DNA from: Symbiodinium sp. CCMP2592
Taxonomy: Eukaryota > Sar > Dinophyceae > Suessiales > Symbiodiniaceae
Length of the DNA stretch: 64,000 nucleotides
Direction: 5' to 3'
Assembly (NCBI GenBank): GCA_905221615.1
Contig: CAJNDT010003990.1
Coordinates: 192,501 to 256,500, forward strand
Position numbers and translations under genes: made by a program. Below the pieces are notes generated by a model. The model was not told the origin of the DNA and searched no databases. It was given only the letters and a program-made list of their open reading frames with translations. Positions 21,832 through 56,940 of this stretch are shown here, one piece after another; positions within the stretch are counted from its first letter, which is position 1; each line of letters starts with the position of its first letter.

Positions 21832-22042
21832 GGGATGCTAGGTGGCACTTTGGAAAACTTTAGAATTTCCCCTACGGTTCCTATCATTCCCCTTATGGCT
21901 CCTATAGAGGTACCTAATGCATACATACTTTTATATAAGGGCCCCGAAACTACAACCCAGGATGGCGAACTTGGAGCTCCACCTCCTGCCGGAGGAGAGC
22001 TGAGGGCAGTCGGGGTGTATTGAGGGGACTCCAGGGGTGTAC

Positions 22043-31095: not shown

Positions 31096-31950
31096 TGACG
31101 ACGACGGCTGCTACTGCCACTCCCAACGACGACGATTCCTATTCCTCGTTGTTCTCCTCCTACATGCCTTCCTGCTTCTGCTGAGGTGCTGCTTTTGCTG
31201 CATCCGCTGCTGAGCTCAAGCGACAGTATCATGTCTTCTACACCGGTTGAACATTCCTGCTATTCCGCACTCCCGAGCCTGCACAGCACCTAAAGATTCG
31301 GTACCGGAGGTTCAGCGTCGCGGGCAGCAGAGTGGACCCCTGTCAGTGCCAGCAGGCGGAAAGTTGTCGCCTCTTGCAACCGGGTTATGCGTAACTCGCA
31401 CCGCCTGTCTATGCTCGAGCTGCAATCGCCGTTCGTTTCTTCAGACTGTGTGGTAACGTACCCGTGCCTCGCTCCCTGCCAGGATCACCATCCTCCCAAG
31501 TCTGCGAGTGAGCAGCATTCAGCCAGCTGTGGCAGCTGGCTCCTCGGAGATCGGCAGTGCTCATGAGCAATCCTGGCTGTGAAAAGCTGCAGGTCGTCAA
31601 TCTTGTCACAGAAACCTATGCTGGCTTGCATCTGGCTCAGCATGGCCTAGCTGGTACACTGAGCCTGACGAGCATCAAAAGACCGAGGGCAAGGTATGCA
31701 AGAAGAACGTCCGAGATCGATGGGGTTCTTGTGGCGCCTAAGCTGCAGTGGGGATGCTGCACCTGCTCGGAGGGTTTCGGTCAGTCGTCGAGAATCAGCT
31801 CTACCAGTACCTGATAGCTGCCCTTTGCCAAAACCGCAAAGCCGCAAACGACCCGAAGTCAAGGCTGTTCTGGATGGTGCTGTCCAGGCCGGCAAGTCGC
31901 AACCTTTCTGGCGTCACGTCTGCTCCCGGCTTTCCTCAGACTGGCCACAG

Positions 31951-32552: not shown

Positions 32553-32758
32553 AGGCATGTCCTCTCTCTTACCCAGGTCTTCTTGTTGTTTTTTTCGTTT
32601 TGGGGTTTAGGGAGAGCAAGAGCCCCGTTTTTGCAGATGTGGACCTATGAACAGCAGCCACGTCTTCCCCAGCCACAGCCGCAGATTGTGCTCCGTGACT
32701 TTGGTTCACGCTTGACAGCAGTGGCAAGACTCAGTGACCCTTGCTGAGGCATGCACAG

Positions 32759-32812
32759 CCTTCGCATCGAGGTTTCCCCGAATGGAGTGCAGTGGTATCT
32801 TGCACCGTGGGG
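32759..32812 (+). CDS. Coding-like exon, IPT/TIG strand segment
   Basis: Acceptor tgcacag. It encodes LRIEVSPNGVQWYLAP, which fits the strand pattern (xVxVSxNGxxF) that follows the Cys-Pro motif in IPT/TIG repeats. The donor is uncertain (near 32810). Probably belongs to the IPT/TIG gene. Confidence 0.45.
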
Positions 32813-34781
32813 TCCTTGGCTGTCTGGCGTGTGGATGCCCAGAAATATTCAGGCTTCTCGGCGTTTTCAATCGCGGCTTTCCATCTCTCACGATGCTGTG
32901 ACGTTAACTAGCTGTTGTTCTAGCCTCAGGCAAGTACCGCAGACCGTCTCAGAGTCTCGCAGGCGTCCGATCGCACTCTTTGAGCAGCCCCAATTCACCA
33001 GTATGGCGTGCCTTCCTCAGACTTCGAGCCTGCTGATGCTGAGATTGCCGATGTGCTTCTGCTTCTTGCTTGCACCTGCTTGTCACACGAGGGCAGGGCT
33101 TAGACCGCAAGCCCCAGTTACCCGGCAGACCTGATTCCACGCTGTCGCTCAGACCCCTGGTGGCTTCTGTCTCCTCGCCACGGTGGATCACCCTTCGTGG
33201 CGTGGGCTTTCCGCAAGCCTGGCATTGATTTCTGAAGCGGCGGAAGTTCACGAATCTGAAATCAAGCCGGCAACCCAAGATCCTAGACCTATCAAAACTA
33301 GAACCGAAGCCCCAAACCCCAAGAGCCCTAACTTCGAAACCCTTCCAAAAAGCGCGGCCCTAAGCTCGTTCCAGGAGATCCGTCGGACTGAAGATCACGG
33401 CACGGGGCTCGAGAAGGGGAGCCGCGAGTACCTGCAAAACACCTCCATATGAGTTTCTTCTACTTCAACACGGCCCCTTTCCTTTCTGTCGCTCGTTTGG
33501 GAACTTTCCTGCCGCTGCCGCAGACTTAGGTCCAGATCGGGGACTTCTTCCGAGAGGCTTTTAGCGTTTCGGGTTTGGAGTTGAAGGTTTGGTTTGGAGT
33601 TGAGGGTTTAGGGCTTTTGAGTGTTGGGTGGACGTTTGATCATGACTCGGTTCATGGTTTGTTGGGGTGTGCTGTTACTGTTGTTTTGCCTCGGTTCAGT
33701 TGAGACGCTTCGAGCAGCACATCTGACTCTGTGACCCTTTGTTTTTTGGAAAATACAATCGTTGGCATGGACAGCTTCCCTCCCCCCCCACACAAAGACT
33801 AGGATTTTGACCTGTTACAGGCCTAGCCGTCCAACCCGATCCGAAGGTCTCGTTCCCGCGCTCTCCTGTAACTTACGATCTTCCGCATGCGCTTTTTCTT
33901 GCATCCTTGTATAGCCAGAGCCTGACCCCAAACACTAAGTGTCATGTAAGCCATCGCAAGCCCCAGCCAATGTCTTTAACGATAGAGGCCAAATGCAGGC
34001 CAGAACACCAAATTGCAAAACAAGGTGCAACAAGATGAACCTCATGAGCAAGCCGATCTCCACTACATGGTTGTACGGTAGCTGTCATAGTGCAAGCCAC
34101 AGAACATGACTTCCTGTGCAGGCCTTGCGAGTCAACAGCACCACATTGAGATTTCGTGGGGGCCCCCGAAAGGAGCGCTTCAGTGCTTCGCTTCCTTTGC
34201 TAATGTTTGGGCGGCTTTCCACTTCTCACCTGCATGTAACCGCCACATCATCATCATGATGATCATCATCGTTATCGTCAACATCGTCAGCGTGGTCATG
34301 ATCACCGTCATCACCATCATCACCATCATCATCATCATCATCATCAATTCGCCACCGTCATCGCACGGCTTGGCATGAGTCTGTCCGTTCTTCGAAACGC
34401 CTTTGGCTCCGAGGTTCCCCGACGTCTCCGACTGCGGTGAATGCCTCCATCTTCGTGTCCTTCGCTGGATCGCCTTCAAAAGACACGGGCTTCTCGCTGA
34501 GGCCCTGCATACAAAAGACTGCTGAAAGCCTTGCGGTAGCTGCTTGTCCAACCACGGAGCTACGAGAGTGTCCAAGGCAAGAGCTTTAGGCAAGCTGTGC
34601 TACTCCTACACGTGCTCGGTATTGGTAGCATTACTGGCATTCATGCGCTTGCTCCTGCTCCTGGTGCTGCTGCTCCTCCTGCTGCTCCTCTTGCCGCTAC
34701 TGCTAGTGCAACTGCTGCCGCTGCCGCTGCCGCTGCCGCCACCGCCGGTGTTGTTGTTGTTGATGATATTTTCTGTGAAAG
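32813..34781. other. No supported gene; ATC and other triplet repeats near the end
   Basis: ATC/CAT triplets at 34235-34350 and CTG/GCT triplets at 34640-34770. Between 32.8 and 34.2 kb there are only short CCCTAAA-like fragments and weak frames. Confidence 0.45.
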
Positions 34782-34846
34782 GCTCTTCGAGCCTCCCGTC
34801 ATCCACAACGTGACGCCAATCGCGATCAGCGTGGGAGACCCTCGAG
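34782..34846 (+). CDS. IPT/TIG exon: opening strand
   Basis: Acceptor gtgaaag (or the AG at 34790-34791), GC donor (cgag|gcctcg). It encodes LFEPPVIHNVTPIAISVGDP. The PxIxxVxP start is the usual first strand of the domain. One base of Gly is completed by the next exon. Confidence 0.72.
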
Positions 34847-37800
34847 GCCTCGAACCAGCGATCAACATTTGCTGGCTAAAGCTATTATAATGATGGTGAC
34901 AGGAAATTAAGTAGTACTTGTTCAAATAATGTGTTAGCACGGCAGAGGTCTGTTGTTTTTCCATAACTTTCGGGTCACTCCGCGAACAGCAGACACACCA
35001 TCACAGTAACAATCGTCGCTCTTTCCCGTATTCAAACTCAGTCCGTGCAGAGAGCAGCATGAATGGCCATGAGGACACGCAAGGCAATCATACCAGCGTA
35101 TTGCGAAAGCCCCAACATGCATTCGACTTGCGAGCACGACATGACAAGTACTCGCTTGATAAGGACAACACTGAGGATGCAAATTGATGCTTCTTTTCCT
35201 ACCGGTATCCGAGCAGCAACCTAATGGAAGCCCTGATGGCAACGCTCATGGCAACGATGCCAACTTGAACGGTAGTTTTCGCCAGTTACACAGACATGGG
35301 GTAGGCTTTGTTGCAGCTGTTGGTCGTATCGCTCTGTGGGCAAATGACCAGGCTAAAGTTCAGTTGAAGGTTGGGTGGCTGCAGAGCATGCCTGTGAGAC
35401 GTTCCAGGTACAGATTCGCGGCGTCCGATCAACGTATACGGCTCCAGCTTCCAGCCGACCGACGAGTGCATATTCCAGTTCGGCTGCCTTGATTACCCCC
35501 AGGTTTGCCCACAACGATTCAAAATAACGTGAACAGAATTTCGGAAGCAAATGGATTTAGACCAGATCGCTGAGATCATATGTGCTGGATGTTGCCAAGG
35601 CCTCATTTCGTATGCATCTTGTCGAAGGGCAGCTCCAGCCCGATGTTAGCAGAATTACCTCCACAGCCACAGGCTCCAAGTAAGCATGAACGTACTTTGT
35701 TTGGAAGCTTCAGCATGACCAGGGCATATGATGAGAGTCTTCGTCCTTTTGTATCCGAGCATGAGTATGTCTCAAACAGGGCTTAAACAGGGACGTCAGT
35801 AACCTAAGCCCCCAAACCCTAAAAGCCTAAACCCCAAAGTGGTCATGGCTTCCCTCGGAATCGAACTCCCTAGAGCCATGATCTCGATTGTCTGGGATGA
35901 AGCTTCGGCGCCTTACCCCGCAGGTATTGAAAATGGCCCGGCTTCCAACAGGCAAGAATTAGTGTCTAGTAAATTTGAATGTGTATGCGTATGTGTGCAT
36001 GTATATGTGTATATGTTTATGTATTTGTAGATTTATGTGTTTATGTATATGAATATGTATATGTAAAAACAATATAACATATAAATAAAGACATAAATAT
36101 ACATCTGTATATGTAATAAAGAGTAGTTTACAGGGAAAATACAATAGTTTTTCTCAGTTTTTTAAATGCCACCTGTCGCGCTAGCCTTTTCTCGTCGCGA
36201 ATCTGCGTGCCTTGACGAAATGGATTTTCCTGCTGCTGGTGCTGGACTAGCAATGGAAATGTCCGATTGATAACAAGGGAAGCAGGCTAATCGCAGCGGC
36301 AGGGAAGAGTTTACAGAAAGGGCTTTCCAAGTTTTTGTGAGCTTGCTCACGGTTGCTCGAAGTTTTTCATTTACGCCCCCTGCAATCTGCCAGCCGGCGG
36401 CCTCACATCTTCAGCTCTAAAATCTCCTGAAGTCCGAGCCGCGAGCCACGAACTCATGAAGTCCAACGAAGAGATCCATGCATGGAGAGTTCTCAGTGCC
36501 CCAGTGGCAGGTCTGCATCCATGGCCATCCCCTTGCGTGTCCCGCTGACCAGCCGCGGCCTTGGCGATTTAGGGTTTAGGGTTCAGCTGAGTTCTTGGCC
36601 TTTCGGGCTTGAGGCTCTTGCGATGTAGGGTTGCTGCGGTTGAGGCTGTGCACTTGCGACATGGCACATGATTGTGCTCTCGCTTGAAACATGGGTCTGA
36701 GTTGGGTTGGCAGAGGCCGCTTGAATGGCTTTGTCGAACATGGGGGGGTAGTGGTGCAGTGGGTGTTGTGACCGGAGTCAAGACGATCCGATCATGGTCA
36801 TACTGGTAACTCCTTCGTGTGGTGCTTTTCGAGATTCTAGTTTCCTTCACGGCTGCAGGAGCTCCGAGATAGAACACCCGCGAAGTGCTGCCAAGGCTAC
36901 ATCTCCGAGTCGCATGTCCAGTGCCGAGCTCCAGGCATCCGATCAGCTCTGGTCAAAAAAGGTGGTGTGGCGCAAAGTGCGGGTTGCTTGAGAACCCCGA
37001 GCCCCGAACCAGGTGTCGCACTGGCAGATGCCGTCGTGCCAGAAAATCCGCCGGAAGCAGAGGACATGTGCGCCCTCTACGCGTGCGGCTGCCGCGCTTT
37101 CACCGAAGCGCCTTGATCCGCGGCCGGGGATTGTGGGCCAGGTCGCTGCAGGAGCAGATCAACACGCTAAGAAACATCGTGAATGCCATGAAGGCGGGCC
37201 TCTCACGAAGCTCAGAGGCACCATAGGAATTATCATCACTGAAATTTGAAAGTGTTCCAATATGACCTCGCCGCATCCCGAATCCGAAGTGCATGCGCTG
37301 CCCCCCGCTTCTGTTCCGCGTAGTGTTGCATCCCACGACAACTGACTGCTGAAACCCCTGTCGCGACTGTTGTGCAGGACTTGTCTCGAGAAGTATGCTG
37401 CTTGAATATACTATAACAGGATGCTATACGATCAAACACTAAACTCTGGACAGCACGCCAGCCTCCTAAACTTCAAATCAAAACCAAAGGATTAGCATAG
37501 GGCTGGGAAGATGCTCGTAGTACCCCCATGATCGCCCCCAAGTGTAACTGTAGTACATTGGATCCCAAACCCCTGTTCTAGCCATTAAGGACCGAAGGGG
37601 TGCCTTATTGTAAGGTCCTTCTACCAATAAGGATCCTACTATCTAGAGTACTATATTAGGGTCCCTGTTTTCGGAAACTCCCACATGGTATCCTAGAATC
37701 CAGTGCACAGGTGGAGCAGCTCAGTGCGCGGGTTGGCAGCTCTTTTCCGGGATGCCCAGAAGATTGTGAGGAGACTGAGAGATCCCAGGGTTCAAGTTAG

Positions 37801-40800
37801 GGTTTATGGCCCTACAGGTTAGTGTTGAAGATTTCACAAAGTTTCAAGGACTGTGGATCTACATGGCTACGAAGCCTCAGCAAAGAACTTTCGAGTCTCA
37901 ACCTAGGGTTGGGCCCCATGGCTATAGTAATGTAGCAGGGACCATTTTGGGACCACCCCAACCCCTGCGCTGCAACAGGAGAAGAACCTCACCTTCTCGA
38001 ATGGAAGTCTGGACACTTGGTACAGAGAGCAAGGCTGGATCGCGCTCATCGGTGCGGGAATAGAGTTGGTCCTTAAATGCCCGTGGAAGACATGCCCCCG
38101 TCCAGAAACCGTGGTTTGTAGTAGTGTGCAGAGAAACAAGAGGCAACACATCTCAACAAGATCGCGAAGTGGTATGGAGTATGATATGGAAGGCAGACGA
38201 CCGCTAAACAATCCTGCAGTCGACTCAGACGCACTGTTTGGTTGGAAGTGGACCTAGCGAGAGCCCCCGTGGTCAGTCGAACTCAACCTTTTCCGTGGCT
38301 TCAGGAACTCGCTCCTGTGCACGCGGTTACTTTTTGTAAGAACAATTAACTGTGTGTCTATACGTGTACTAAACTAAACTGTATATGCTGTCTATGTATA
38401 TATACATATCATAATGCAGGGAGCTGCTTGAGAGGCTGTAGGTTTTGCAGCCCCGCCCGCTCGGAATATGTAACCGGAGGGGGAGGGGGGGCACGGTACC
38501 ACATGATTGTGGAGCAAACATCTCTCCCAATGTCCGGAAAGGGCGTGAAGCCGGCGATGGGGGCATGGGGGGAAGGAATCGGGCTCGAAGCCTTCCGAAC
38601 CCCACATGATGCCTCCGTGCCAATTCCCGTGGCCAGATTTCAATGACACCGACGACATGCCGCCTTGGTCGCCGGACAATATGTCTTACGAGGCAAGCAC
38701 CCTGAGGGGCAGGATCTTGCAAGACTTGGTAGCATTAGTAGCTCTAGGTGGTAATCCTAACGCTCCACCTAGATCGCGATGCAGGCATCGGTACAGCCAG
38801 CAAGCGCAGAGCAGGCTCGTGGGAGTGTATTAGTTTTCGGAACTAGTATGAGTATCAGTCCTGATTCAGTACTACTGTCAGTATCAGTACTTTACTGTTC
38901 AAGTCGTTGTTATTCTTGTTATTGCTAATACTTGTTAGGATTGTTCAGCTTCTTGTTATTGTTGCTGCTGTTGCTGTTATTACTGTTATTGTTACGAGAA
39001 TAGTACATGATTATTGAAACTATATCCGTTCTTACCGTGTCTACTACGAGCAATGGTGTTGTTGGTATTGTTAGTAGTCTCATTATTGTTAGTACTGTTT
39101 TATTCTATGACCATCGTAGCTCTTGTTAGCATTGCTGTTTGTATTTGTGTTGTTGTTCTTCCTGTTAATTTCTAACAGTATCATAACTAGGACTTGCCTG
39201 CTTCCTGCAGGATCGGGAATCGGAGACTGCTTTAGCAAGGTTAAGCTGCGTGCGGCTGTACGGACAGCCGCACATTTCGGACGGCTCGTAAGATTACTGA
39301 CCATCGGTGGGCTCGGTAGCCTGCCTGAGGTCCCAGTCTTGCGCCTGGTGCAGTGGGTGCAAAGCAGTCATACCTCTCCCTATCCGAACTTAAAATCCCT
39401 AGACCGATTATATTTAGAACTGATGCTCAAGAAAAGCCGAGCTCAAGCAGAAGCCTACCATGTTTGATCAGAAGATCACTGCTGAGTCACTATCAGGGCA
39501 TACTGTAAGGTTTAGGCTCAAGGGTCGTCTTCTGGGCTGTCCGTCGGTATGCTGCCGTGGGCCCGTGAGCCAAATCTTAAGCCTTAGTCAAAAGATGCCT
39601 CAGTCAAAAGCTGCATGACCTGGTTTTAAGCAGGGTTATAAGCATGACTACATACTTTAGTCACACTTCCCTCGGGTGGTGATATAATGATGCTTGTAAT
39701 GCCTACGTGTAATCTGAACCTTCAAGTGCGCCTTCAGGTGCGCCTGGAAGCACAGCAGAGTCAGCTTATCTTCGAGGTGCATCCAGCAAGAAGCAGATCA
39801 GAGTCTACAAAACATCAAGTCCGGATATTTCTTCGCAAGGGCTTGTGGGATTCAGAACTCGGCTTCTTATTGACTTCATAACCCAAACGGGCAATAGTTT
39901 CCCCAATATAGAACAATATAGAACAGCTATGCCTCCAGTGTATCTTGTAGCACGTTCATGAAACCAAAAAACCCAAACCACCTCAAAGCCGAATATAGAA
40001 GCCTCGCCAATCATCAATACTATTCCTTAACATCCCTTGTTGTACTTACATTATAGACCCGTAGCATGCGTAGCATGAACTGAACCCTATAGCCTGATCC
40101 CTAAACCTCAAAATGCCCACAGTCCGCTTCAATTCAAAGGCCGGCATTGCCTACTTCGAGTGCGTGGCGCAGCTGTCGGCGCCCCGTGTGGTGGAGGCCA
40201 GCTTTGTATCTGAGACAGCCCTAAGTCGAAGGATCAGGGTTTAAGGTTTAGGGTTTAGGGATGTAGGGTTTAGGGTTTTGGGGGCTTAGGGTTTAGGGTC
40301 TAGGGTTGTTTGCAGGGCAACTGAGAGACTTGTTTCGAGTTCCTGCTTCAGCAGGCTCAAGAGTACCTTGGCTTTTCGAGCGATACCATGCCAAGCCGAA
40401 TATATCTACAGATGCAGGATAGTGAATTTCATACGAAGCTTATCCATTTTGTGCTGTACGACTATATTCAACTCGTCCAGCTGGGTAGAAAAAAAACCAT
40501 TCCGAAGCTGGGCGAACCAACAAACCTTGCCAGACCATCACAGAGCCCCTCATGTTCCCATCCTTCAACCCTCCAAAGGTCCGGTGCAAGCCCAGCTTTT
40601 AGAGGCCCGGCACCCGAGGCCCTTAAAGGATCCTAAATCCCCAAGCCTAAACCCCACAAGCCGTGTGGTCTCGTCAGGAGCGGCCTCTGGGAGGCTTCCT
40701 CCTGGCCTCCGTGTGGTCTCCGAGGCTCTTGGATGCACAGCCCACGGCCCTGGGCTCTGATGCACCGCGGCCAACAATGCAGCAATGGGACCGGGGCCTT

Positions 40801-40977
40801 GGACTAAGGGCGTAGGGTTCAGGGTGGGAGTCCAGTAACTAGTAACTACCTGCTGCTACTGCTACTGCTACTGCTACTGCTTCTGCTTCTGCTTCTGCTG
40901 CAACTACTACAACTACTACAACTACTACAACTACTACAACTACTACAACTACTACAACTACTACAACAACAACAACT

Positions 40978-41020
<43 letters not shown>

Positions 41021-44000
41021 CTACTACTACCACTACGACGACGACGACGACTACTACTACTACTGCTACTACTGCTACTCACTAACACTACCACCACTGC
41101 GACTTCTCCTGCCAGTTATGCTTCTGATTCTGTGATCGTCAACGTCGTCCTCGTCATCGTCGATGGTCATCTTCTCCATGTTATCATCACCCTCATCCTC
41201 ATCGTCTTTCACATATGCATTTATCAAGGTGACCTTTGCGGCTTAAAGGGTGCTGTGGGCGACCTTGGTACGTAGCAGGCTGTGGCAGGTCAACAGTGCT
41301 GCACTGTGTGCAGATGCGTGTAGCACCAAGGACAGGTCGAGGTCATCATAAGCTCGTGACCTCTGCCGGTCTCTCGCCCTCTCCCTTTCGCTCTCTGTGT
41401 TCTCATCTTGGGACTTGGAATCCTTCGTTCTTAGCAGATCGAGCTACAACGATCTCCGTCTGTTCTCACTTGCTCGTGGGTGCCTGTAAGCCGGAATCCC
41501 AACGCCCGTCCCCAACCCAAACCCGTGAGGGGGCGATCGTGGCAACTGAGGCATTTCCTGTGCGGCTTCTGCCACGGTTGGGGATTTCCTCTGTGCGCCC
41601 AGATTCGGGGCCCGTTACTGGAGGCAGGGTTTGTTGCTGGCAGCGGGTTCAGGGGGGCTCGCCAAAGCTTTCATACTACCTCTCGCGGCGCTCCTTCTGC
41701 AAATCTGTCATTTTTCGACAAACGGCGCAAAGCAGCAGCCTTGCGTCGAGACGAGCTCTGGTGTATCTGCCAGTGGTGCTTGCTGAGGCACGGAATGCCT
41801 GAAGATCTTCAATGCTTGTAGTACTTCGTTGAAGTTCAGGTGATTACCGTCAGTAGTTATTGCTGATTCTTGCACCATGTCGTCCCTGTCTGAAGACTCG
41901 CAGGACAGGCAGAGAGATGCTCTCAAAAGGGTTTACAGTGCACAGACCTCAAGAAGACAAGCTACAAACGCAAAGCCTGCGAAGGTGGACCTGAATTGCA
42001 TACAGGCAACAGGGGGTCGGCAAACCGGAATTCATATCTACCACAGTCAGCAGACCGGAGATGTTAGGATACGATCTGCAAGGGAGGCTACAACTCTCAG
42101 AAGCATGGGTGCTTCTGTTTCGAGATCACTTTTCCGAAGCATCTAGGGTTGACCACATCCTCAAGCCGACAACACCAGGAACTTTGATAGCCGTCGTGGG
42201 CAATGGCTTCTCGCAGCAGGGGCGCCTGTCGTGGCCTCAAAGTCGCGTGGCCCCGAAACCCCAAGCTTCGGCAAGAGACTCAAACCGAAGCTAACCCTGA
42301 ACCCAGCTCATGTTACCTGTTTTGCCGACTGCCTGAGGTCTTGTGCATTTGCCATGGCCTGAGGGATGTAGATGGACCTCAAACTCTCCGTGGGTGGCTG
42401 TGTGTGTGTGTGTGCTTGCGCTGAGGGAGTCTGAGGCATGGATGGGTTTAACGGTTCAGGTCGTGGTCTGGCCGTGAGTGCTCTTTGCTGGTTTGGCTCA
42501 GGATGATAACTTGTACATGCCCGCCCGCTTCTTCAACGAGAGCTTGATCTACTGTGACCTGGGAGTTTGTTCCACAGGTTGACGCTTGAACAACTGTTAG
42601 GCCTTTTGCAGAGACTTGCGAGCATGCTACCCGCTACAAAATCAAGTCGCGGGAGGTCCTAGTGGAGCAGCAGGCCCCACCATGCGGCAGGTACAACGCC
42701 CGCCTACCATCCGGCAGGCAGTGGTAGCGAAAGCTTTGCCACGTCAGACAACCGCATCTCAGGGTCGTTATCTCATAGACTGTAGCCCGAAGTCAGCCTT
42801 GCAGAGGGCTCCCCCCCCTGCTGACTGCTGACAGGAGTTTCGAAGCTAAAGGTGGCAAGTTGGTTGCACGAGCTCGGAGCTCAACCCTTGAGCACTTGCT
42901 ACGACGATCAGAAAAGTTCTAAGTCAACGCAGATTGAATCCCCAAACTCCAGGCTCAGAGCCCACAGCCCAACCAGTAGCAGCCGAGGCTCTCGGTGACG
43001 TCCGTGGACTTCACTTTCTATCCCAAGCAAGCCACTGAGTTCGATGGTGACACATCCGTTGCCGGCAGTCGCCTCACTACCTACTGGTGGTGGGTTTCGG
43101 GCGCGGACGGATGTAGGATTCCGAACTAGTTCCCAGAATGTGGGGAGGCACCCTAAATCCTACACCCTGCAGCCCATTCGAGACGGCTGAGGGAAGGATT
43201 GAAAGGCCTTGAGACCTAAAACCACGAACCCAAAGCCTGAAGCCTCAGCTCTTTGCCGAGGTGGGCTTTCTCACTGCAGCAGGACCTGCCTCTCGATTTC
43301 GGGGTATGTTGGGCATGTTTGCGTGCGGGCCGTGCGGGCCGAGCAAGGACTCTTAATGTTGGAGGTTTTGAGGGCTTCACGGCTTGCATGTGTCCGCCAC
43401 CGCCCCCGCCCCCACCACCACCACTACCACCACCACCACCACCACCACCACCACCACCACCACCACCACCACCACCACCACCACCACCACCACCACCACT
43501 GCCGCCGCCGCCGCCACCACCACCACCACCACCACCACCACCACCACCACCACCACCACCACCACCACCACCACCATTCCAATCACTCACCTCTACCATT
43601 GCCAGCAACATACACTTGAGGTGTTCAAAGGCTTCAATGCAGGGTATACTGAGCCTCGTAGACTTCTGTAGAGCCATTTTGTTGGCTCCTGCCTGACCCT
43701 CAACGCCATGTCCACCCTCAGCCCTATATACTAAGTCTTAAGTTTCAGGTCATAGAGAACCAATGCAACAGCTATGATGGGTGACCCTAATGGATATTGT
43801 CACTGACTACTGTTGCCCCATATGACACTGTTTCTCTCAGGAGGCCACATGCTTTTCGGGCGACATCGGGGACAGCGTGGTGTTGTATGCTCGAGAGGCA
43901 TGCCAAGGAGTTCAGGGCGCTGGGCTTGCAGAGTTAGAGTTTAGGGTTTAGTGGTGCGCTTCGCTCACAATGTTTCAAGACACCTTCAAGTGGTTCCCTG

Positions 44001-47000
44001 TTAGCAGTATCATATCCCATGTAAACTTGGCCAGGCAGAGTTCCTTCAGTGGCAATACTCGGTTTACGAGGCGTTGTGCATGTTCACCGCTGCGCCTTGG
44101 AAGCATCGAAGCTATTTTTTCGGACTCGTTGTGTCCACATGACAAGCTTCGCTCGCAGGTGGTGGTATTGGTGGTAGCAGGGTTTCCCGCTAGCATTCAG
44201 AGGCTTTCGCTACTCAATCCGAACACAAACGCCTAAACCCTTAACTTGCCAAGAAAGCCACTGTCCGTACCAATTTAAGAAGTCTACAGGTTACACGGAG
44301 AGGAAGGTGGAGGCGGAGGAGGAGTGATGAGGAGTGGAGGAGGAGGAGGAGGAGGAGGAGGAGGAGGAGTGAAGGAGGAGTTGTTGTTGTTGATGTTGCT
44401 GTTGCTCTGGCTGTAGCTGTTGCTGTTTCGGTTGTGGTTGTGGTGTTCTTTGTGGTGGTGGTGTCGTCGTCATTCGAGTCGTAGCAGCACCCACGAGGTC
44501 GGTCCACCCATGGGAGTCTTCAACACCAAGGCGTGAGAGCATGCGGACAATATAGCTCAGAAATTTCGATCAGGGTTCCCATGAGTTTGGGGCCAGCTTG
44601 GGGCTCAGGGCCCGAACTCTTGAACCACTTTTGATTTCGAGACCTAAAGTCTAAACAGGCCACGATTTATGCTTGGAACGACACCATGAGGGTGGTCTGC
44701 CACGTGCCCAGTTCCGATGCGTGGGTGGACTCGCATGCCGGGCCTAGCCCAGAAGCTGAGGACGGAGATGCAGGACTGTAGGCATCGAGATTCTCACGAT
44801 GCCCAGGTCCTTGTCCGCCTCTGCCGAGCCCGCAGAATGGGATTGGGGTGGGGCTCTTACACTAATGCTCTGCCTGCTCCTGTGGTGCCTTCGGAGCTGG
44901 GAGCTGCCTTTTGGGAGTTTCCGAAAATTGGGGGGTACCTTATTCGGGGTCCGTAGAACAGGGATCCTACTCTTGAGGGTGCTATATGTCGGTCCCCTAT
45001 TTTCGGAAACTCCCTTCTGTGTTGGCCTTGTCAAGGAATCGATGAACGTCTCGATCTCCTTGGATGGGAAAGCCACGGTCAGCGATGTGCTCGGCACAGC
45101 CCTTAGAAGCGACACCGCCCCGAACGGTCCGCACGAGTCCCAAGATACCGGTTTAGGGTTTAGGGCCGTTTAGGGTGTAGGGGTTAAGGGTTTAGGGTTT
45201 GGGGGTTAAGGGTTTAGGGTTTAGGATTGAGTCACTGTACACGGGGCACTGGGATGGGGATTGATGTAGATGATCCTGCCAAGGCCAGCCGGTACGCATC
45301 CTGCCGGCACCAACTATTGTCGACATGGCCTGTGCCTCAGCCTTGCAGCAAGAGCAGCTGGAAATGCAGACGAAATTCCTGGAAAGTGAAGTGTTCTGAC
45401 GCCCTCCGCTTTGACCGAAACTCCGGCTCTGAACCCAACCGTTCCTTTAGCCCGTAGCCCGAAACCTTCATCCCTGCAGACCCCTACGGTGTGGACGACG
45501 GGGGAGTCCTTTGAGCTGAAGATCACCGGGATTGATTTCCCAAGATCGGAGGAGGCACGTCCAGCAAACTGCGGCCTATGCACAACCACAGCTGTATTCC
45601 GTATCCTTAGGCTTGTTGGACTAGTAAATCCTGAAAACTACCTCAGCACTTTAACTTTAGGCCGTCAGAAAGTAGCACTCGGATCCAGAAGCCGTCAACC
45701 ATGGGAGGTGGAGATGGCTTGCATCTTCTTCGACCACTCGTCCCAAGGTATGGGCTGCGTGTCAGCGTGTCATCCTTGGGGTGTTAAGCAGCTAGGAATC
45801 CAAGGCCCCAAACCCTAAACCCTATGTCTAAACCCTAATGGGGCTTGGGGAAGCAACAGCTTCCAGCAAGAGCTTTGTTTCAGCAGCTTGACGTCGGAGC
45901 TGCGTCAATGCCGGATGCAAGTACTGGCAGGTTACATCTTCGAGGCCTTTGGCGTGCAACAGGAGCTGATGTGGCGGAATCTGGTGCAGGACTTCCACCA
46001 TGAATTCTGGTCCTCCGGAGCACAACTTGAAATCCTAAAGCCCTAAACCTTGACTGGTATCTAGTTTTGCTCTTCATGTGGGTTGGCACGAGCATTCTGT
46101 GCAAGTTCTTGGAGTTGGGCCTGAAATCCAGGAGAGACGGCCAGGTTTTCTGAGTAACACGCAGTGGCAAAAGGACGCCCTAACCACTCGAACCTAGTTC
46201 CCAAGCCCTCAAACCCCAATGCCCTGAAGCCCTGAACGCAAACTCCTCGATATCCGTCAGGACACCTGCCTGGCCGTTCCAGAAGTGCAGTGGACGCACC
46301 AATGGCCGTGAGCTCACTTTGACTGCGTTTCCAAGCGTCAGATTCTGCATCGTCCTGAGGCAAGATGTTCGAGAGCCGTTTTGTGCACATGCAGGCAACG
46401 GGAGGGAAGCCTTGGCCCAGCAAGACTCTGCAGCTGGGGATTGTTGAACTTGTCTCCTCTGCCTGCATGGCCCTCTGCTTTGGAAGGTGCTCCCATGAAC
46501 TGGAGCGGAGCCTTAGCCATGAACTTCGCGGAATGGCTCTCGGACAGCGAAATTCGGTGCAATGTCCCACCTCTGGCGATGACGATGAGGCTGTTTCATT
46601 GTTGGAGGGTGTGGGCTTTCTGAGGTGGATCGTTGCAGAGCCTTTGCTTCCGCTGACATGCCATCTCAAAGAATGGACTTCCCGACAAATAATAAGTAGA
46701 TGTACATAGTGGTTTGAGTAGTAGCAGTGGTGATCGTAGTGGTGGTGGTGGTGGTGGTGGTGGTGGTGGTGGTGGTGGTGGTGGTGGTGGTGGTGGTGGT
46801 GGTGGTGGACAACTACCACTACCACTCCCACTGCCGCTACCACTACCACTACTCCACTACCGCCACTGCTACCGCTACCATTACCACCGCTGCCGCTGCC
46901 GCTACCGCTACCACTACCAGTACTGCTACTACTCGACCACCACCATCACAGCCACCACCACCACCACCACCACCACCACCACCACCACCACCACCACCAC

Positions 47001-50000
47001 CACCACCACCACCACCACCACCACCACCACCACCACCACCACAACGACTACTACTTCTACTAACTACTCCTGCTGCTGCTACTACTACGACGATGACTAC
47101 GACTAATTACTGCTCCTCCTACTACTCCTCCTACTGCTCCTGCTCCTACTCCTGGCTACTGCTTCTGCTACTAAGAGTGCTGTTGCTGCCGCTTTTACTT
47201 CTACTGCTACTGCGACTACCAGCACTGCAACCACCAATAAAGCCAGGGGGAACTTGACGACGAACCGTTCGCTGATGGTGTTCCTGGCGGCCAAGCAGAG
47301 CACCGGCTTTCGGACGCAGGCGAGGCGGCTAGAGGGCTTCGGGCCGCTGAAGGTGTCTGGAGTTTCGGAGTGAGTTGTTGTTCGAGGCTTTTGGGCTTAG
47401 GATTTGGGTTGGGTTCAGGTTCATGCTCTAGCATTTCCGATATGCGAGTTTGGAGTCAGGGCTAAGGGTGGTGTGGGGTGGTGCCACTGGCGGCTTTCAG
47501 GTCAGCACTCTGCCGGACATCCACCTTCTGCCCCCGGTGCAGATTCTCCGTGTCGAGCCTGAGGTGAGACTTCAGTTTACACGGCTACATGTGGGTGGTT
47601 ATGGAAATCATGCTCCTTTTTCGGGTCCCTATTATAGCACGGCACCTATTATTTAGGCTACCCAAAAAGGGACCCTAATTTTGACAACCACCCATGTTGC
47701 TAGCCCCGACACTCCCTCAGTTGGCTTTGGAGTCTGCAAAAATCAGAAAAGTTCTGAGACGTCCTCACCCTCCCTCGCCCTTCCGCACTGCGTTTCCGCA
47801 TCATTGTACTCCTCCGGTGTTAATCTAAGCTTTAAACTTCTGAACCCCCACCTGTCAGATCATGGCGGTGGTGGAGCGCAATGACACCAGCAGCGTGCCC
47901 CTGTTATACCTGCGAGTCTTCGGGGAGTCGAAAACCCAGTGCCCAGAAGATACGAGTGCTGTTCGTGCGCTGATCTTTGCATTTTGGCGGCTATGGTCCG
48001 TGCTTGTGCTCATGACCACCACCATTTTTGCCATCATCTTCATCTTACTGTAGCCCTAGTCCCACTCCAAGGGAGCACTTTCTGAAGCATGCCGCGCGAA
48101 GCCGGACGAAGCGGCCTGGCACCCAGAAGGAGTGGTCTCAGAGTCGTTCCATGACTACCTTCTATCTCGGGTTGAAGATTTACTTTTTCTGCGTTGAAAA
48201 CCGGAGCTCTTTGATTGCTAAACCGCTAAACCCTTACCGGTGATCTGAACACTAAGACTGGAGAATGTCGAGAACGACAGGGAAGAGCAGGGACAAAGTC
48301 GTTGCCACTACGACTACAATGCCTGCGACTACACGACCTCGACCGCGACCACGACCACCACGACCATCATCACCACCATCACCACCATCACCACCACTTC
48401 ACTACCACTTCACTATCACTGCTAGCAGCAGCAGCAGCAGCAGGAAGAGGAGGAGGAGAAGGGGAGGAGGAGCAGGAGTCGCATGATATTGGCATTTTGT
48501 AGCGGTGATGGTAATGATGTTGTTGGTGGTAGTAGAAGCAGCAGTTAGTTGGAGTATCGGCGAACCTTGCTGCTGGTCAGACTAATGGAATGTCTTTGGA
48601 ACTAGGGAGTTCTCCGATAGGTTCCGATCGATTACTAACGCTGCTTCATTGCTCTGATTTTGTCACTAGCATGATGAGCAGTATCCGTACTTGTCCTTCT
48701 TGTTCGTATTATCGGCATCAGTCGTGTTATGAGATGCTACTGGATCCGCGAAAAGAGCCGGCTTTGGACCGCTACCGAGGTGTCGTTTGCAGTGGCAGTT
48801 TCCCGGTATGGAGGACCGACATCAGCGTTTGGGTTTCCAGGTCCGGGGTTTTTAAAGCTTTGGGTTTGGGGCTTGATGGTGCTCGCGCCGCACTGCCTGT
48901 CCAGGAGCGGCTTCTGACAGCACTTGTGGTGAATGAGACAGAGGCAGGAGGAGACTTGAAGGACTTTGCATCTCTTTTGAAAACGATTTGTGTAGACATG
49001 TTGTCAAGAGCTTGGCAGGTGGTCTGCCAAGTGCCGCAGTATCTGAAACTTTGCTGCAGCACAGGTAGACGTATACATGTGGTTTCGACCAGATCAAATC
49101 AGTCTATTTGTTTGGTTGTTTGTCTATCCATCTATCTTTTTCTCTCTGTGTCTCAATCTATCTTCAGCGAACTCTTTCGGTTTCCATCTACCTATCTATC
49201 CACCCATTGCCCATGTGTCTATCTATTTATGTGTCTGTCTGTCTGTCTGTCTATCCAGCGAGTATGTCTGCCATGTTTATATCTTGATACGTACAGATGT
49301 ATGTTTTTCAATCATGCAAGCATGCATGCACATCTTCACCTGTTTCGCTCGCACCAACTCAGGCTCTACCTGAACGAGCAGCCGGGAGCTCGAAGCAAGT
49401 GACATCACATGTTCGGCTATAGCGAACCCAAAGAGTTGGAAACCGCATTAAAGATAAATGGTCCTGGGATTCCCTATACTTCGTTCTTGAGGATTGAGGC
49501 TATTGGGCTTCCAACCTTTGGGCTCACACTGTAAGGGTACATGGTAATTGCAGGTGTCCAGCCTGGACGAAACTGTCTGCTTGATACCCGAAGCGCGTAG
49601 TGGCTTGAGACACGAAACCGAAACCCTTGAAGCCTCTCTGCCCGTCCATGATTCAGGGCCTACCTGTCGCTGTCCGTTGACGGCATGCTCTGGTCGAACT
49701 CCCTGCCCGTGTTCTTCATGAGACAGGCAGCACGATGCGCGAGTACTGCCATGTAGCCCAAGACACCATCCCACACCGTGCAGTTGCTCAATTAAGCTTC
49801 AACCCTGAAGCCAGCAGACTCTTGTAAAGGTTCCCGCACCTAAATAGGAGTTTCCGAAGAGTAGGGGTACGTATGTTTTGGGGTCCTTAGAATGAGGATC
49901 CTACTACTTAGGCTACTATATGTTAGGGTCCCCTATTTTCGGAAACTCCCAAATCTTCAGACACCGTAACTCGACTCTTCGTGGCCTTAAAGGTCCGCTT

Positions 50001-51238
50001 GGAGATTGCTGGGCCGACTCTGGTGCCCCCTTTCACGCCCATCACGCTGAACATCACCGGCACGTTCGAGTCCCTGCAGCAGTATCAGGCCTGGGTGTGT
50101 TCATATTCACATAATATATGCATATCCATGTACTTAGTCTTTATATTGTTTATACTGTATGTATGCATGCATGCATGTATGTATGTACGTAAGTCTGTGT
50201 GTGTGTGTACGTGTGTATGTGCATAGACAAAACACATCCATGTACCTACTGTGTATATTGTTTATACTGTATGTATGTATGCATGCATGCATGCATGTAT
50301 GTACGTATGTCTGTGTGTGTACGTATGTATGTGCATATACGTATGTACACATCCATGTACTTACTGTTCGTATTGTTTGTATTGTATGTATGCATGCATG
50401 CATATATGTATGTACGTATGTACGTATGTCTCTGTGTGTGTGTACGCATGTATGTGCATCTGCATAGAAACACATCCATGTACTTGTTGTTTGTATTGTG
50501 TATACTGTATGTATGTATGCATGCATGGATGTATGTATGCACGCATGTCTGTGTGTGTACCTATGTATGTGCTTATACATGTCTACACATCCATGTGCTT
50601 AGTGCTTATATGCATGCATGCCTGCATGTATGTATGTCTATGTGCGTATGTATGTATGTATGTATGTATGTACGTGCACCTATACATATGTGTACACGTA
50701 TACATGTACTTACTGTGTATATTGTTCATCATGTATGTATGCATGCATGCACGTATGTCTGTGTGTGCACATATGTATATATGTATGTATTTGCCTGTAC
50801 ACATATTTGCAGATGTATGCACATAGATATGTATCTCTGTATGTATGTATGTATGTATGTGTTTGCCTCTATATATATATATATATGTATATGTGCATAT
50901 ATATATATAGTATATATACATATATGCACATATGTAATTGCTTTAAATGACATTGACATGTATCTATGTATGTATGTAAGTACGTATGTATGTACGCATG
51001 TATGTATGAATGCATGTATGATTGTTATGTATGGTATGTATGGTATGTATGTTGGCTATGTTTGCTGTTCGTGCTGTACAAGCTAAGAGGCACGGTACGG
51101 GTATGGCATGGTCTGGTATGGTACCGTTTGGTAGACTATGCACCAAGCCCTAAACTCCACCCGAATGAACTGCGGAAGTCTCGGCAGATCTTGCGCCGCG
51201 CTACGCAGATTTGGTGTGACTTTGGGGTGCCGACAGAA
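34782..51238 (+). CDS. IPT/TIG-repeat extracellular protein, giant multi-exon gene
   Basis: At least 19 small exons chain along the + strand. Three segments join in exact phase. (1) 34782-34846, 35408-35502, 36859-36951, 37818-37865, 37979-38051, 38637-38692: a complete IPT/TIG unit with opening strand PPVIHNVTPIAIS, INVYGSSF, FQFGC, VQCRAP and VSVEDFTKF. (2) 44659-44724, 45036-45098, 45480-45554: MRVVCHVPSS, MNVSISLDG, FELKITGIDF. (3) 46487-46575, 47501-47563, 47859-47924, with 49993-50088 joined to 51188-51238 (ITLNITGTF, IWCDFGVP). A classic opening, SVRPDSGPVTG, lies at 41551-41623. IPT/TIG domains are immunoglobulin-like folds in cell-surface and adhesion proteins (family knowledge), so an extracellular role is inferred. 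Introns are a mix of GC-AG and GT-AG, up to 1.4 kb, with MITEs and microsatellites inside. Both ends are undefined, and it may prove to be two genes. Confidence 0.7.
35408..35502 (+). CDS. IPT/TIG exon: central strands
   Basis: Acceptor gttccag, GT donor (cag|gtttgc). It encodes TDSRRPINVYGSSFQPTDEC followed by IFQFGC. The G-x-x-F and FxFG motifs are typical. Phase 1 in, phase 0 out, matching both neighbours. Confidence 0.8.
36859..36951 (+). CDS. IPT/TIG exon: Cys-Pro strand
   Basis: Acceptor ggctgcag, GT donor (ctg|gtcaaa), 31 codons. It encodes ELRDRTPAKCCQGYISESHV followed by QCRAPGIRSAL. The VxCxAP motif marks the domain's late strand. Confidence 0.75.
37530..37683. mobile_element. Composite of a MITE-A right half and a degenerate MITE-C
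   Basis: 37530-37592 resembles the right half of MITE-A (TAGTACATTGGATCCCAAAC, then CCATTAAGGACC). 37590-37683 resembles MITE-C, ending TGTTTTCGGAAACTCCC. Both lie in the intron 36952-37817. Confidence 0.6.
37818..37865 (+). CDS. IPT/TIG exon: strand after the Cys-Pro motif
   Basis: Acceptor cctacag, GC donor (atg|gctacg), 16 codons: VSVEDFTKFQGLWIYM. It fits the VxVSxxxFTxF strand. Phase 0 on both sides joins the exons before and after. Confidence 0.72.
37979..38051 (+). CDS. Exon of the IPT/TIG gene
   Basis: Acceptor gcaacag, GT donor (atcg|gtgcgg), phase 0 to 1. It encodes EKNLTFSNGSLDTWYREQGW and IALI. The frame stays open to 38257 if unspliced. The preceding intron is 113 bp, GC-AG. 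Confidence 0.6.
38637..38692 (+). CDS. Exon of the IPT/TIG gene, acidic
   Basis: Acceptor tggccag, GC donor (gag|gcaagc), or GT at 38728. It encodes FNDTDDMPPWSPDNMSYE, with an Asp codon completed from the preceding exon. Confidence 0.55.
38730..40120. repeat. Intronic TTG/TTA triplet repeats
   Basis: GTT/ATT triplets at about 38900-39170 and otherwise unremarkable sequence. An open frame at 39123-39467 starts in the repeat and has no family features. Confidence 0.6.
40123..40196 (+). CDS. Exon of the IPT/TIG gene
   Basis: Acceptor cccacag, GC donor (gag|gccagc). It encodes RFNSKAGIAYFECVAQLSAP and RVVE. The FECVAQ element fits the Cys strand. The phase to earlier exons is not settled, so an intervening exon is likely. 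Confidence 0.55.
40236..40308 (+). repeat. TTTAGGG telomere-type run, intronic
   Basis: Near-perfect TTTAGGG units with GGGGGCTTAGGG variants, in the putative intron 40197-41550. Confidence 0.88.
40845..41085. repeat. CTA/CTG and CAA triplet microsatellite, intronic
   Basis: Triplet tract within the putative intron 40197-41550. Minus-strand poly-Val and poly-Ser frames are artefacts. Confidence 0.93.
41551..41623 (+). CDS. IPT/TIG exon with classic domain opening
   Basis: Acceptor aactgag in phase 0, GC donor (ggag|gcaggg) in phase 1. It encodes AFPVRLLPRLGISSVRPDSG and PVTG, the P-x-SGP-x-x-G motif that opens IPT/TIG domains. Just beyond, a different frame reads FVAGSGF, which also looks like the next strand. 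Confidence 0.65.
42988..43071 (+). CDS. Exon of the IPT/TIG gene
   Basis: Acceptor gccgag, phase 2 in. It encodes LSVTSVDFTFYPKQATEFDG and DTSVAG. The donor is not fixed (GC sites near 43061-43066). Confidence 0.5.
43395..43577. repeat. CAC triplet microsatellite, about 180 bp
   Basis: Almost pure CAC/CCA repeat with a short GCC interruption. It yields poly-Pro, poly-His and poly-Thr frames on + and poly-Gly or poly-Val on -, all artefacts. Confidence 0.97.
44325..44480. repeat. GAG and GTT/GTG triplet microsatellite
   Basis: Purine-rich GAG/GGA tract followed by GTT/GTG triplets. No coding meaning. Confidence 0.9.
44659..44724 (+). CDS. IPT/TIG exon: Cys-Pro strand
   Basis: Acceptor ctaaacag, GT donor (tgg|gtggac), phase 0 both ends. 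It encodes ATIYAWNDTMRVVCHVPSSD and AW. The VxCxVP motif is diagnostic of the fold. Confidence 0.72.
44913..45014. mobile_element. MITE-C copy 1
   Basis: About 102 bp with terminal inverted repeats GGGAGTTTCCGAAAAT / ATTTTCGGAAACTCCC, nearly perfect, and core GGATCCTACT. It lies within intron 44725-45035 and ends 21 bp before the next exon. Confidence 0.92.
45036..45098 (+). CDS. IPT/TIG exon: strand after the Cys-Pro motif
   Basis: Acceptor tgtcaag, GC donor (aca|gccctt), 21 codons: ESMNVSISLDGKATVSDVLG plus T. It continues the preceding exon without loss of frame. Confidence 0.72.
45150..45232 (+). repeat. TTTAGGG telomere-type run, intronic
   Basis: Interstitial TTTAGGG units with GGGGTTAAGGG variants, inside the GC-AG intron 45099-45479. 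Confidence 0.88.
45480..45554 (+). CDS. IPT/TIG exon: G-x-x-F strand
   Basis: Acceptor ccctgcag, GC donor (gag|gcacgt), 25 codons starting TPTVWTTGESFELKITGIDF. Phase 0 both ends. Confidence 0.68.
45847..46043 (+). CDS. Coding-like segment in the IPT/TIG gene region
   Basis: Frame open from about 45840 to a TAA at 46043 with no repeat character: QELCFSSLTSELRQCRMQVL then GYIFEAFGVQQELMWRNLVQ. Two Cys and aromatic residues suggest a folded domain, but not clearly IPT/TIG. Internal splice sites are possible; the boundaries are tentative. Confidence 0.4.
46487..46575 (+). CDS. IPT/TIG exon: Cys-Pro strand
   Basis: Acceptor ttggaag, GC donor (ctg|gcgatg), phase 1 in and 0 out. It encodes APMNWSGALAMNFAEWLSDS and EIRCNVPPL. 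The IxCxVP motif is clear. Confidence 0.62.
46738..47045. repeat. Inverted GTG and CAC microsatellite pair, intronic
   Basis: GTG run (46738-46808), mixed CCA/CTA triplets, then a CCA/ACC run (about 46950-47043). The two outer runs are complementary and could pair as a long hairpin. All lie in the GC-AG intron 46576-47500. Confidence 0.93.
47501..47563 (+). CDS. IPT/TIG gene exon
   Basis: Acceptor gctttcag, textbook GT donor (gag|gtgaga), 21 codons: VSTLPDIHLLPPVQILRVEP plus E. Phase 0 both ends. Confidence 0.65.
47592..47694. mobile_element. MITE-B copy 2
   Basis: Terminal inverted repeats TGGGTGGTT... and ...AACCACCCA, with GGGACCCTAATTTTGACAAC at the right. It is collinear with the copy at 19041-19143. 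Inside the GT-AG intron 47564-47858. Confidence 0.88.
47859..47924 (+). CDS. IPT/TIG gene exon
   Basis: Acceptor cctgtcag. It encodes IMAVVERNDTSSVPLLYLRV and FG. It ends at a possible GA donor (ggg|gagtcg). If not spliced, the frame runs to 48053 with a strongly hydrophobic end (FWRLWSVLVLMTTTIFAIIF), which could be a membrane anchor; that part resembles triplet repeat, so the call is uncertain. Confidence 0.5.
48345..48540. repeat. CAC/ACC, GCA and GAG triplet repeats
   Basis: Short adjoining triplet tracts. The frames across them are artefacts. Confidence 0.85.
48905..49018 (+). CDS. Coding-like exon, helical
   Basis: Acceptor tgtccag, GT donor (cag|gtggtc), exactly 38 codons in phase 0: ERLLTALVVNETEAGGDLKD then FASLLKTICVDMLSRAWQ. 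Helical rather than strand-like, so it may be a linker in the IPT/TIG gene or belong elsewhere. Confidence 0.5.
49080..49260. repeat. CTAT/CTGT microsatellite, degenerate
   Basis: CTAT, TCTC and CTGT units. No coding meaning. Confidence 0.75.
49847..49950. mobile_element. MITE-C copy 2
   Basis: Begins GGAGTTTCCGAAGAGT and ends CTATTTTCGGAAACTCC, with core GGATCCTACTACTTAGG. It ends about 42 bp before the exon at 49993. Confidence 0.9.
49993..50088 (+). CDS. IPT/TIG exon: G-x-F strand
   Basis: Acceptor cttaaag, GC donor (cag|gcctgg), 32 codons in phase 0: VRLEIAGPTLVPPFTPITLN then ITGTFESLQQYQ. It joins directly to the exon at 51188. Confidence 0.68.
50105..51070. repeat. ATGT microsatellite, about 950 bp, intronic
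   Basis: Imperfect TATG/CATG/GTAC units, with a repeating longer period of about 120 bp that includes the sequence ACACATCCATGTACTTACTG. It fills most of the 1.1-kb intron 50089-51187. Cys/Tyr/Met-rich frames are artefacts. Confidence 0.95.
51188..51238 (+). CDS. IPT/TIG exon: central strand
   Basis: Acceptor tcggcag, GC donor (gaa|gcctga), 17 codons: ILRRATQIWCDFGVPTE. The CxFG motif follows the G-x-F strand of the previous exon as expected. Confidence 0.62.
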
Positions 51239-53313: not shown

Positions 53314-54555
53314 ATGCACTCCCACGAGGACATTGCACAGGCGGTTGCAGAGGTCGATCTGCGCGTGAAGACGGGATGGCTTTCCAAAGAGGAAGCTCAC
53401 AAGCTGAAGACCTTGTTGAAGATGGGCCAGACGATAGAACGATCCACGGACAAGGCATCGCAGTTTTGGACTCACAATGCTGACGTCATGTTGAAGCAAT
53501 ACCTCCTACTCAGAGAGGAGAACACACCTTGGAAGAAGTTCCTGACCGCGATCGGCTACACTTGGCTTCAGAGGCAGTTGAAGGAAGCAGATGCCAAGAA
53601 GAGCGAGGAGGTTAATACAAGCCTTTTCGTTCACATTGTGGAGTCAGACTACTTTGAATCCGCCATGGGGCTGGTGATGCTCGCGAATGCCATAATGATC
53701 GGCTTCCAGGTTTCCAGCACCGAGGAGGATAAGTCCAGTGCAGAGCTTTATGCGATCCTTGACTTCGTGTTCACGGTGATTTTCGTGGTGGAGCTGGTCT
53801 TGCGCTACTGTTGCGAAGGATGGCGATGGTGGTTTCGAGGTTCCAACATCTTTGACGTCGTAGTGGTGCTAGCCACAAACGTGATTCCCATATGGATCCT
53901 GGTGCCGCTTGGAATTGACCCTGCCTTGATACGGCCGTTTGCGGTCCTGCGTTTGTTTCGGCTGGTCAAGCTGATGAAACTCATCAGAAAGTACAGAAGT
54001 CTCCGTACACTGTGGAACCTGTTCCAGGGGGTCCTTGGAAGTGGTAAAATACTGCTCTACACAGTCCTGGTGATGGGCACCACATTGTTCATTTGGTCTG
54101 TGCTGGCTGTCGTCTTGATAGGCCAGGACCCGCGAACTAAAGACCATCCCGACGTAATCTTATACTTTTCCAACGTCCCTGATGCGGTTTTCACGCTCTT
54201 CCAGATCGTGACCTTGGATAGTTGGTCGGCCATTGCCCGACCTATTGGGGCCTTGAACCCGCTTGCAGCTCTCCTGATTGGCATGAACATTGTTATAGTC
54301 GAGATTTGTTTGTTGAATCTGGTCACGGCCACCATTGTCGATGCAGCCTTCAAACGACAGCAAGACGACCATGAGATGGTCGCACAGGAACAGAAGATCA
54401 AGAGCGACAAGCTCATCGAAGAGGTCCGGACCCTATTCATGGAGATGGACAAGAGCGGGACGGGCAGCCTCAACTACGAGGAGTATCTGGATGCCGTGAG
54501 TGACAATCCTCAGATCCAGACCAAGTTTACCACTTTAGAGATCGATGATGCCGAG
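53314..54555 (+). CDS. Channel exon 1: N-terminus, S1-S6, EF-hand
   Basis: 414 codons, unusually long for this window. It ends at a GA donor (gag|gactct). The open frame continues four residues to a TAG, but the downstream exon at 55045 continues the protein better. Confidence 0.92.

Positions 54556-56154: not shown

Positions 56155-56940
<786 letters not shown>

Follow-up and report, generated by a model that had tools for sequence, protein, structure and literature searches.

We analysed a window of 64,000 nucleotides (contig C3990, positions 192501–256500) from Symbiodinium sp. CCMP2592, the assembly of which comprises 1.098 Gb in 5383 contigs, and describe on its + strand a locus of small exons that very probably encode strands of IPT/TIG domains, immunoglobulin-like beta-sandwiches of about 80 residues. 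The TIG-coding signal is firm at one domain, which we call B and which spans 41584 to about 42.5 kb (all positions are those of the window); further domains are probable or suggestive on either side of it. The source genome is that of a dinoflagellate: the exact 21 bases of the dinoflagellate spliced leader occur in it 217 times in forward and 212 times in reverse orientation, and the backward control sequence occurs 0 times. In three Symbiodiniaceae genomes, acceptors are AG|G in 96–97% of cases, donors are GC (44–58%), GT (24–37%) or GA (17–20%) and exons average 99–120 bases (PMC10666404, PMC9412976). The exons of domain B are:

41551..41623, + strand: exon B1, ...GISSVRPDSGPVTG, strand A of domain B; AG|G acceptor, GC donor; top match in every + strand search
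42179..42227, + strand: exon B2, GTLIAVVGNGFSQQGR, strand B, joined to B1 in phase 1; found by the same searches as B1
42502..42564, + strand: exon B3, suggestive, DDNLYMPARFFNESLIYCDLG, strands E–F of domain B; chosen by 'alg' when codon usage or the published splice frequencies are applied ('it2' and 'blind2' paths choose 42460 in its place)

Because motifs picked by eye can always be obtained in 64 kb, we handled the question statistically. A Viterbi search threaded a TIG profile through the DNA, with introns in all phases and tandem repeats masked, and two splice settings were compared, our first settings and the published dinoflagellate splice frequencies. Four profiles were used. The first, 'alg', consists of six hand-written algal-like TIG sequences and is not fully blind, because they were composed after the preliminary description and a list of motifs were known; 'comb' adds plexin and bacterial-type TIGs and an author-written consensus to these six. 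The third, 'it2', is made of that consensus, plexin segments from PDB chains and bacterial-type TIGs, and leaves out the six 'alg' sequences. The fourth, 'blind2', extends the 'it2' set with the TIG domains of contig C545 from the same genome; it holds no window exons, and its sole author-written sequence is the consensus.

With 'alg', the + strand totalled 51.9 bits and the minus strand 13.0 under the first settings (80 shuffles: mean 8.2, standard deviation 4.8, maximum 23.8), and 71.0 and 27.5 with published frequencies (40 shuffles: mean 15.1, maximum 37.9). The corresponding values for 'comb' were 43.3 and 5.8 (60 shuffles: mean 9.2, maximum 22.5), then 68.0 and 15.1, the latter pair being judged on the minus strand alone, without shuffles. 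For 'blind2' they were 45.4 and 11.2 (80 shuffles: mean 12.4, maximum 35.6), then 61.4 and 16.0 (shuffle mean 18.6, maximum 47.2), and the four top + strand matches under its first settings begin within 34.7–47.6 kb. With published frequencies, 'it2' gave 51.3 and 16.1 (shuffle mean 13.9, maximum 36.2). Computed without codon usage, the total exceeds chance in seven of the eight profile-setting pairs, the only exception being 'it2' with the first settings. It is thus confirmed that TIG-like strands, in an order compatible with splicing, are more numerous on the + strand than chance would provide. The order P-x-x-x-V-x-P, V-x-G-x-x-F, C-x-F, V-x-C-x-P, V-x-V-S stands above the controls for the whole and for domain B. 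A preliminary description, made by eye, had claimed such an order with compatible phases across 34.8–51.2 kb; the spliced search bears this out for domain B, and not with the same firmness for all of the interval.

Domain B on its own exceeds all shuffles with 'alg', 'it2' and 'blind2'. The top 'alg' match, 41584–45086, scores 17.6 bits (best-domain maximum of the shuffles, 10.0), domain B scores 14.9 and 22.1 with 'it2' under the first and published settings (maxima 12.2 and 12.3), and 16.2 and 22.0 with 'blind2' (maxima 14.2 and 13.0). Joined by hand, chain B (41551+42179+42338+44659+45036) reaches 32.8 bits against Pfam TIG (PF01833), over the curated cut-off of 20.9; with exon 42502 swapped in it scores 23.1 and 22.8 bits, still over the cut-off, and a 216-residue join reaches 46.5 bits in two matching stretches. 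The highest Pfam score comes from reading 41551–45086 as one domain, the alternative being two. Such scores of joined chains are optimistic because the exons were picked to fit, and the test that counts is the comparison with shuffles. Together, the Pfam matches and the shuffle controls support the identity of the repeats as IPT/TIG.

As a joining control, the same joining was applied to the best 'alg' paths of the window, of its reverse strand and of 60 shuffles, and the resulting 380 peptides were scored with 'it2', a profile free of hand-written 'alg' sequences, along paths that had been chosen with them. B scored 32.5 and A, the domain upstream of it, 19.5, compared with 16.6 for the best shuffle (59 of 60 gave a score) and 9.4 for the minus strand; paths 46528–49714 (11.4) and 42940–45086 (9.0) were not distinct from shuffles. 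In hhalign comparisons with nine plexin and bacterial-type repeats, six window chains gave 91.4% and three gave 26.6%, values that are optimistic in the same way as the Pfam scores of chosen exons.

Domain A (34.8–37.9 kb) is composed as follows:

34782..34828, + strand: exon A1, LFEPPVIHNVTPIAI, strand A of domain A; donor not fixed; second 'alg' match and third, weak, in 'blind2'
35408..35502, + strand: exon A2, TDSRRPINVYGSSFQPTDECIFQFGCLDYPQ, strands B–C; same basis as A1
36859..36934, + strand: exon A3, ...YISESHVQCRAP, strands E–F; 'alg' path
37979..38053, + strand: candidate exon A4, suggestive, EKNLTFSNGSLDTWY..., strand G; ends not fixed; from a coding scan and a leave-out profile (the first 'alg' path used 37789–37862 instead)

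The 'alg' match 34795–37862 scores 12.0 under the first settings (shuffle best-domain maximum 10.0) and 18.4 with published frequencies (maximum 14.5). The domain is weak with 'it2' (1.6 and 4.2 under first and published settings) and scores 3.2 as the third-ranked 'blind2' match under the first settings; it exceeds the shuffles only with a profile, or a choice of path, that includes the hand-written 'alg' sequences.

Downstream of B, three further domains, B', C and C', can be laid out to 49.7 kb:

42988..43102, + strand: candidate exon B'1, suggestive, LSVTSVDFTFYPKQATEFDG..., strand A of domain B'
43841..43918, + strand: candidate exon B'2, suggestive, EATCFSGDIGDSVVLYARE..., strand C; coding scan and a later path
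44659..44724, + strand: exon B'3, probable, ATIYAWNDTMRVVCHVPSSDAW, strands E–F; first 'alg' path; assignable to B or B'
45036..45086, + strand: exon B'4, probable, ESMNVSISLDGKATVSD, strand G; donor not fixed; first 'alg' path
45480..45554, + strand: exon C1, probable, TPTVWTTGESFELKITGIDFPRSEE, strands A–B of domain C; third 'alg' match
45708..45747, + strand: exon C2, probable, VEMACIFFDHSSQ, strand C; GT donor; same basis as C1
46487..46592, + strand: exon C3, probable, ...AMNFAEWLSDSEIRCNVPPLAMTM, strands E–F; ends not fixed; 'alg', 'comb', 'it2' and 'blind2' paths
47501..47563, + strand: candidate exon C'1, suggestive, VSTLPDIHLLPPVQILRVEPE, strand A of domain C'; 'comb' and 'blind2' paths
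48905..48943, + strand: candidate exon C'3, suggestive, ERLLTALVVNETE, strand E; 'comb' path
49019..49038, + strand: candidate exon C'4, suggestive, VVCQVP, strand F; 'comb' path, and 'blind2' with published frequencies
49657..49729, + strand: exon C'5, probable, AYLSLSVDGMLWSNSLPVFF..., strand G; first 'alg' path

By their order and strand pattern these domains are likely to be TIG-coding, and they are not individually significant. The third 'alg' match, 45459–49714, scores 9.2 bits and is not significant alone because the shuffle best-domain maximum is 10.0; C (8.5) and C' (3.2) are among the three 'blind2' matches that follow B under the first settings, all inside the region, and C' scores 2.7+12.6 in the leave-one-out test. 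The TIG-like exons at 42.5–43.9 kb and 47.5–49.04 kb are additional to those of the preliminary description, and the row therefore probably holds more domains than one chain.

At both ends the candidates fade:

31483..31556, + strand: upstream candidate; leave-one-out 2.1 bits, noise
32749..32836, + strand: upstream candidate, suggestive only; low-scoring 'alg' path
33097..33221, + strand: candidate upstream exon Y1, ...LSLRPLVASVSSPRWITLRGVGFPQA; leave-one-out 4.2 bits, noise
49993..50094, + strand: candidate exon D1, suggestive, VRLEIAGPTLVPPFTPITLNITGTFESLQQYQAW; leave-one-out 5.6 bits, within the control range
51209..51238, + strand: candidate exon D2, weak, IWCDFGVPTE, the last exon of the preliminary description; no AG|G acceptor nearby

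Domain D (to 51.24 kb) and the three upstream exons are only suggestive as TIG-coding. The extension to about 30 kb that had been proposed earlier thus does not rise above suggestion, the two leave-one-out scores upstream being within noise. A TIG-like path elsewhere in the window, at 21363–23641 (+ strand), scores 18.8 bits with a window-trained profile, which we read as noise level.

Codon usage offers modest support for the TIG frames, in the right direction. The training set comprised 3239 codons in 14 ion-channel frames, with no TIG gene among them, from 30 loci, four of which had been set aside beforehand and 12 of which had a stop in the assumed frame. The TIG frame scored best of three in 9 of the 11 first-found exon cores (8 of 11 on synonymous usage only), compared with 0.50 for random stop-free stretches, and in 20 of all 23 cores (19 on synonymous usage), part of which had been picked by codon scores. 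An AG|G lies upstream in open frame in 22 of 23 cores, some of them picked by that rule, and in 2952 of 5000 random cases; exon C1 is the one core that lacks it. An earlier count, 13 of 16 exons with the best codon score in the TIG frame, was set aside in favour of the ion-channel-trained counts, as its training contained C545. That training also underlies the codon scores of the coding scan, the leave-one-out tests and the codon-weighted search runs, and exon A3, scored with it, did not have the TIG frame as its best.

Several results weigh against a row of TIG domains over the whole interval. A gene finder that used codon usage and splice signals, without a TIG profile, read 5 to 7 of the 11 cores in frame (random, 0.31), a result that we withdrew as independent evidence because the C545 TIG gene supplied 1307 of its 2480 training codons. 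Once these codons are removed, the count falls to 1 to 2 of 11 (P 0.03 to 0.20), and to none on synonymous usage; ion-channel training yields 2 to 3 of 11 (P about 0.03), or 1 of 11 on synonymous usage (P 0.15 to 0.20). The set of 11 omits exons 36575, 37791 and 42339, which belong to the same first paths; with all 14, a recheck gives counts of 5, 7 and 8. The 'it2' total under the first settings, 28.8 (minus strand 13.7), is below the maximum of 30.3 among 60 shuffles (mean 8.6). With codon usage, the minus strand at 66.5 itself exceeds its shuffle maximum of 50.0. Forbidding AG|G lowers the + strand total from 71.0 to 42.7 and the minus strand likewise from 27.5 to 15.3, and this test is therefore no evidence, both strands dropping alike. 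The profile search of the joined exons, which the preliminary description had proposed, is passed, among the single chains, by chain B alone. Chain A as first joined has no Pfam TIG match and with its last exon 13.4 bits, chain C reaches 17.4 bits, both under the cut-off, and chains B', C' and D have no Pfam TIG match. An automatic 1255-residue model shows TIG at 9.3 bits only (E 1.5), presumably because its exons overrun domain edges.

The best explanation as a whole, and one that we regard as fairly probable, is a + strand gene that encodes a row of TIG domains over many small exons. Such a gene would begin at about 41.5 kb at the latest and would probably cover 34.8–49.7 kb, with each domain split over several small exons, one or two beta-strands per exon; its introns have ends of the dinoflagellate type (GC, GT or GA donor, mostly AG|G acceptor). 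That one mRNA contains the exons between 34.8 and 49.7 kb is likely. The span of at least 16 kb that had been put forward is likewise likely, with domain D suggestive only. By analogy with TIG repeats elsewhere, the product may be a rod-like protein, extracellular or secreted, that acts through contact and perhaps attaches to proteins or glycans on the cell surface or within the cell covering; if at the surface, it would be a candidate for cell contact.

A bolder version, which we hold tentatively at best, is a pure TIG array of eight or more domains over about 31–51 kb, with introns between the beta-strands of nearly every domain, that may have grown by copying exon groups together with their introns. 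Introns recur at like places, which is why such growth may be considered: one between strands F and G recurs in the models of A, B' and C', and it is not in one phase. Read in this way, the array would differ from the C545 TIG gene, which keeps long uninterrupted frames. It is unlikely that two or more neighbouring TIG genes are present instead, for example at 34.8–38 kb and 41.5–51 kb. No supported recognisable TIG exon lies between 38.1 and 41.5 kb, but the A and B parts lie on the same strand and encode the same kind of domain, and no start or stop signal was recognised between them, though none was recognised anywhere. More doubtful is the view that only domain B, or perhaps B to C', is truly TIG-coding, the eye or the profile having picked out A, D and the upstream exons by chance: with profiles free of hand-written 'alg' sequences only B exceeds all shuffles alone, and D and the upstream candidates (Y, Z) are within noise in the leave-one-out tests, yet A exceeds the shuffles with 'alg' under both settings and ranks third with 'blind2'. 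A decaying locus, in which most domains (A, B', C, C' and D) score low in Pfam because their exons have drifted, is very improbable, as the exons remain open and codon bias persists in the TIG frame of 9 of 11 cores.

A six-frame search of the 1.1-Gb genome for the TIG family gave three matches among the best candidates scored, all on contig C545. The window locus is silent in it because each exon holds one or two strands, which shows how genes of this kind can escape a domain search when dinoflagellate DNA is scanned unspliced. The C545 gene (L015 5377–9540), which we take to be fibrocystin-L-like (PKHD1L1-like), carries TIG (74.8 and 31.2 bits), PA14 and G8 domains; it shares TIG domains with the window locus, whereas its long uninterrupted frames (995 and 391 codons) contrast with the many small exons there. 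Neither PA14 nor G8 was found in the joined chains or in the 1255-residue model, which is incomplete. The IPT domains of plexin and the HGF receptor have the C-x-F and V-x-C-x-P strand pattern in common with our chains; the Sema and PSI domains of plexin and Met were absent from the joined chains and the 1255-residue model, which represent a partial gene. Chain C also has a TIG_plexin match below cut-off, and no other domain was matched in the window chains scanned. Protein searches of the genome with the joined chains gave no close paralogue: 9 of 12 and 4 of 8 matches fell on the exons of the window itself, and those elsewhere were weak (E at least 0.16). No plasmid record matched the TIG consensus, and Rfam and tRNA scans of the window found nothing. 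In Cladocopium, four up-regulated TIG (PF01833) genes are reported, for which the authors suggest roles in adhesion or the extracellular matrix (PMC7695302); these are likewise dinoflagellate proteins with TIG domains, a likeness at domain level. Our locus is very probably a genuine TIG-repeat gene, cut into short exons as dinoflagellate genes commonly are; with TIG genes already reported in coral symbionts, it counts as a fairly ordinary one.

A scan for signal peptides and last exons yielded nothing above background, and for the TIG gene neither a start or stop nor a signal peptide or membrane helix could be located. Five signal-peptide-like ATGs with low codon scores lie at 27.5–34 kb; over the whole window there are 42 (+ strand) and 33 (minus strand). 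A helix is present in one candidate last exon, at 52011–52244, which is not rarer than background (12 distinct stops per strand). An ion-channel frame follows at 53227–54570 (+ strand), a single frame with Ion_trans at 109.7 bits and a sub-cut-off EF-hand-like end; the start of this frame is probably close to 53314, and unless nested the TIG gene should end before it. In this genome 150 Ion_trans matches were scored, of 374 candidates. Upstream, an Ion_trans fragment at 17748–17966 (+ strand; 23.6 bits, cut-off 25) and, 3 kb past it, a sub-cut-off EF-hand-like stretch at 20156–21256 (+ strand) perhaps belong to a second, intron-rich ion-channel gene. A 162-codon frame at 27914–28402 (+ strand) has a signal-peptide-like start, not flagged by the signal-peptide scan, and a body that by eye recalls ML/NPC2-type lipid-binding proteins, with no Pfam or PDB match. 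Just outside the window, an 882-codon frame (L017 1–2646, minus strand), with all Pfam matches under cut-off, may be a reverse-transcriptase element that carries a zinc finger. Interstitial telomere-like arrays of the TTTAGGG type lie at 9392–9445, 32369–32549, 40236–40307 and 45150–45225, and long arrays of three- and six-base repeats at 8547–8965, 43397–43576, 46936–47042 and 56187–56930 create long spurious open frames, several frames at once.

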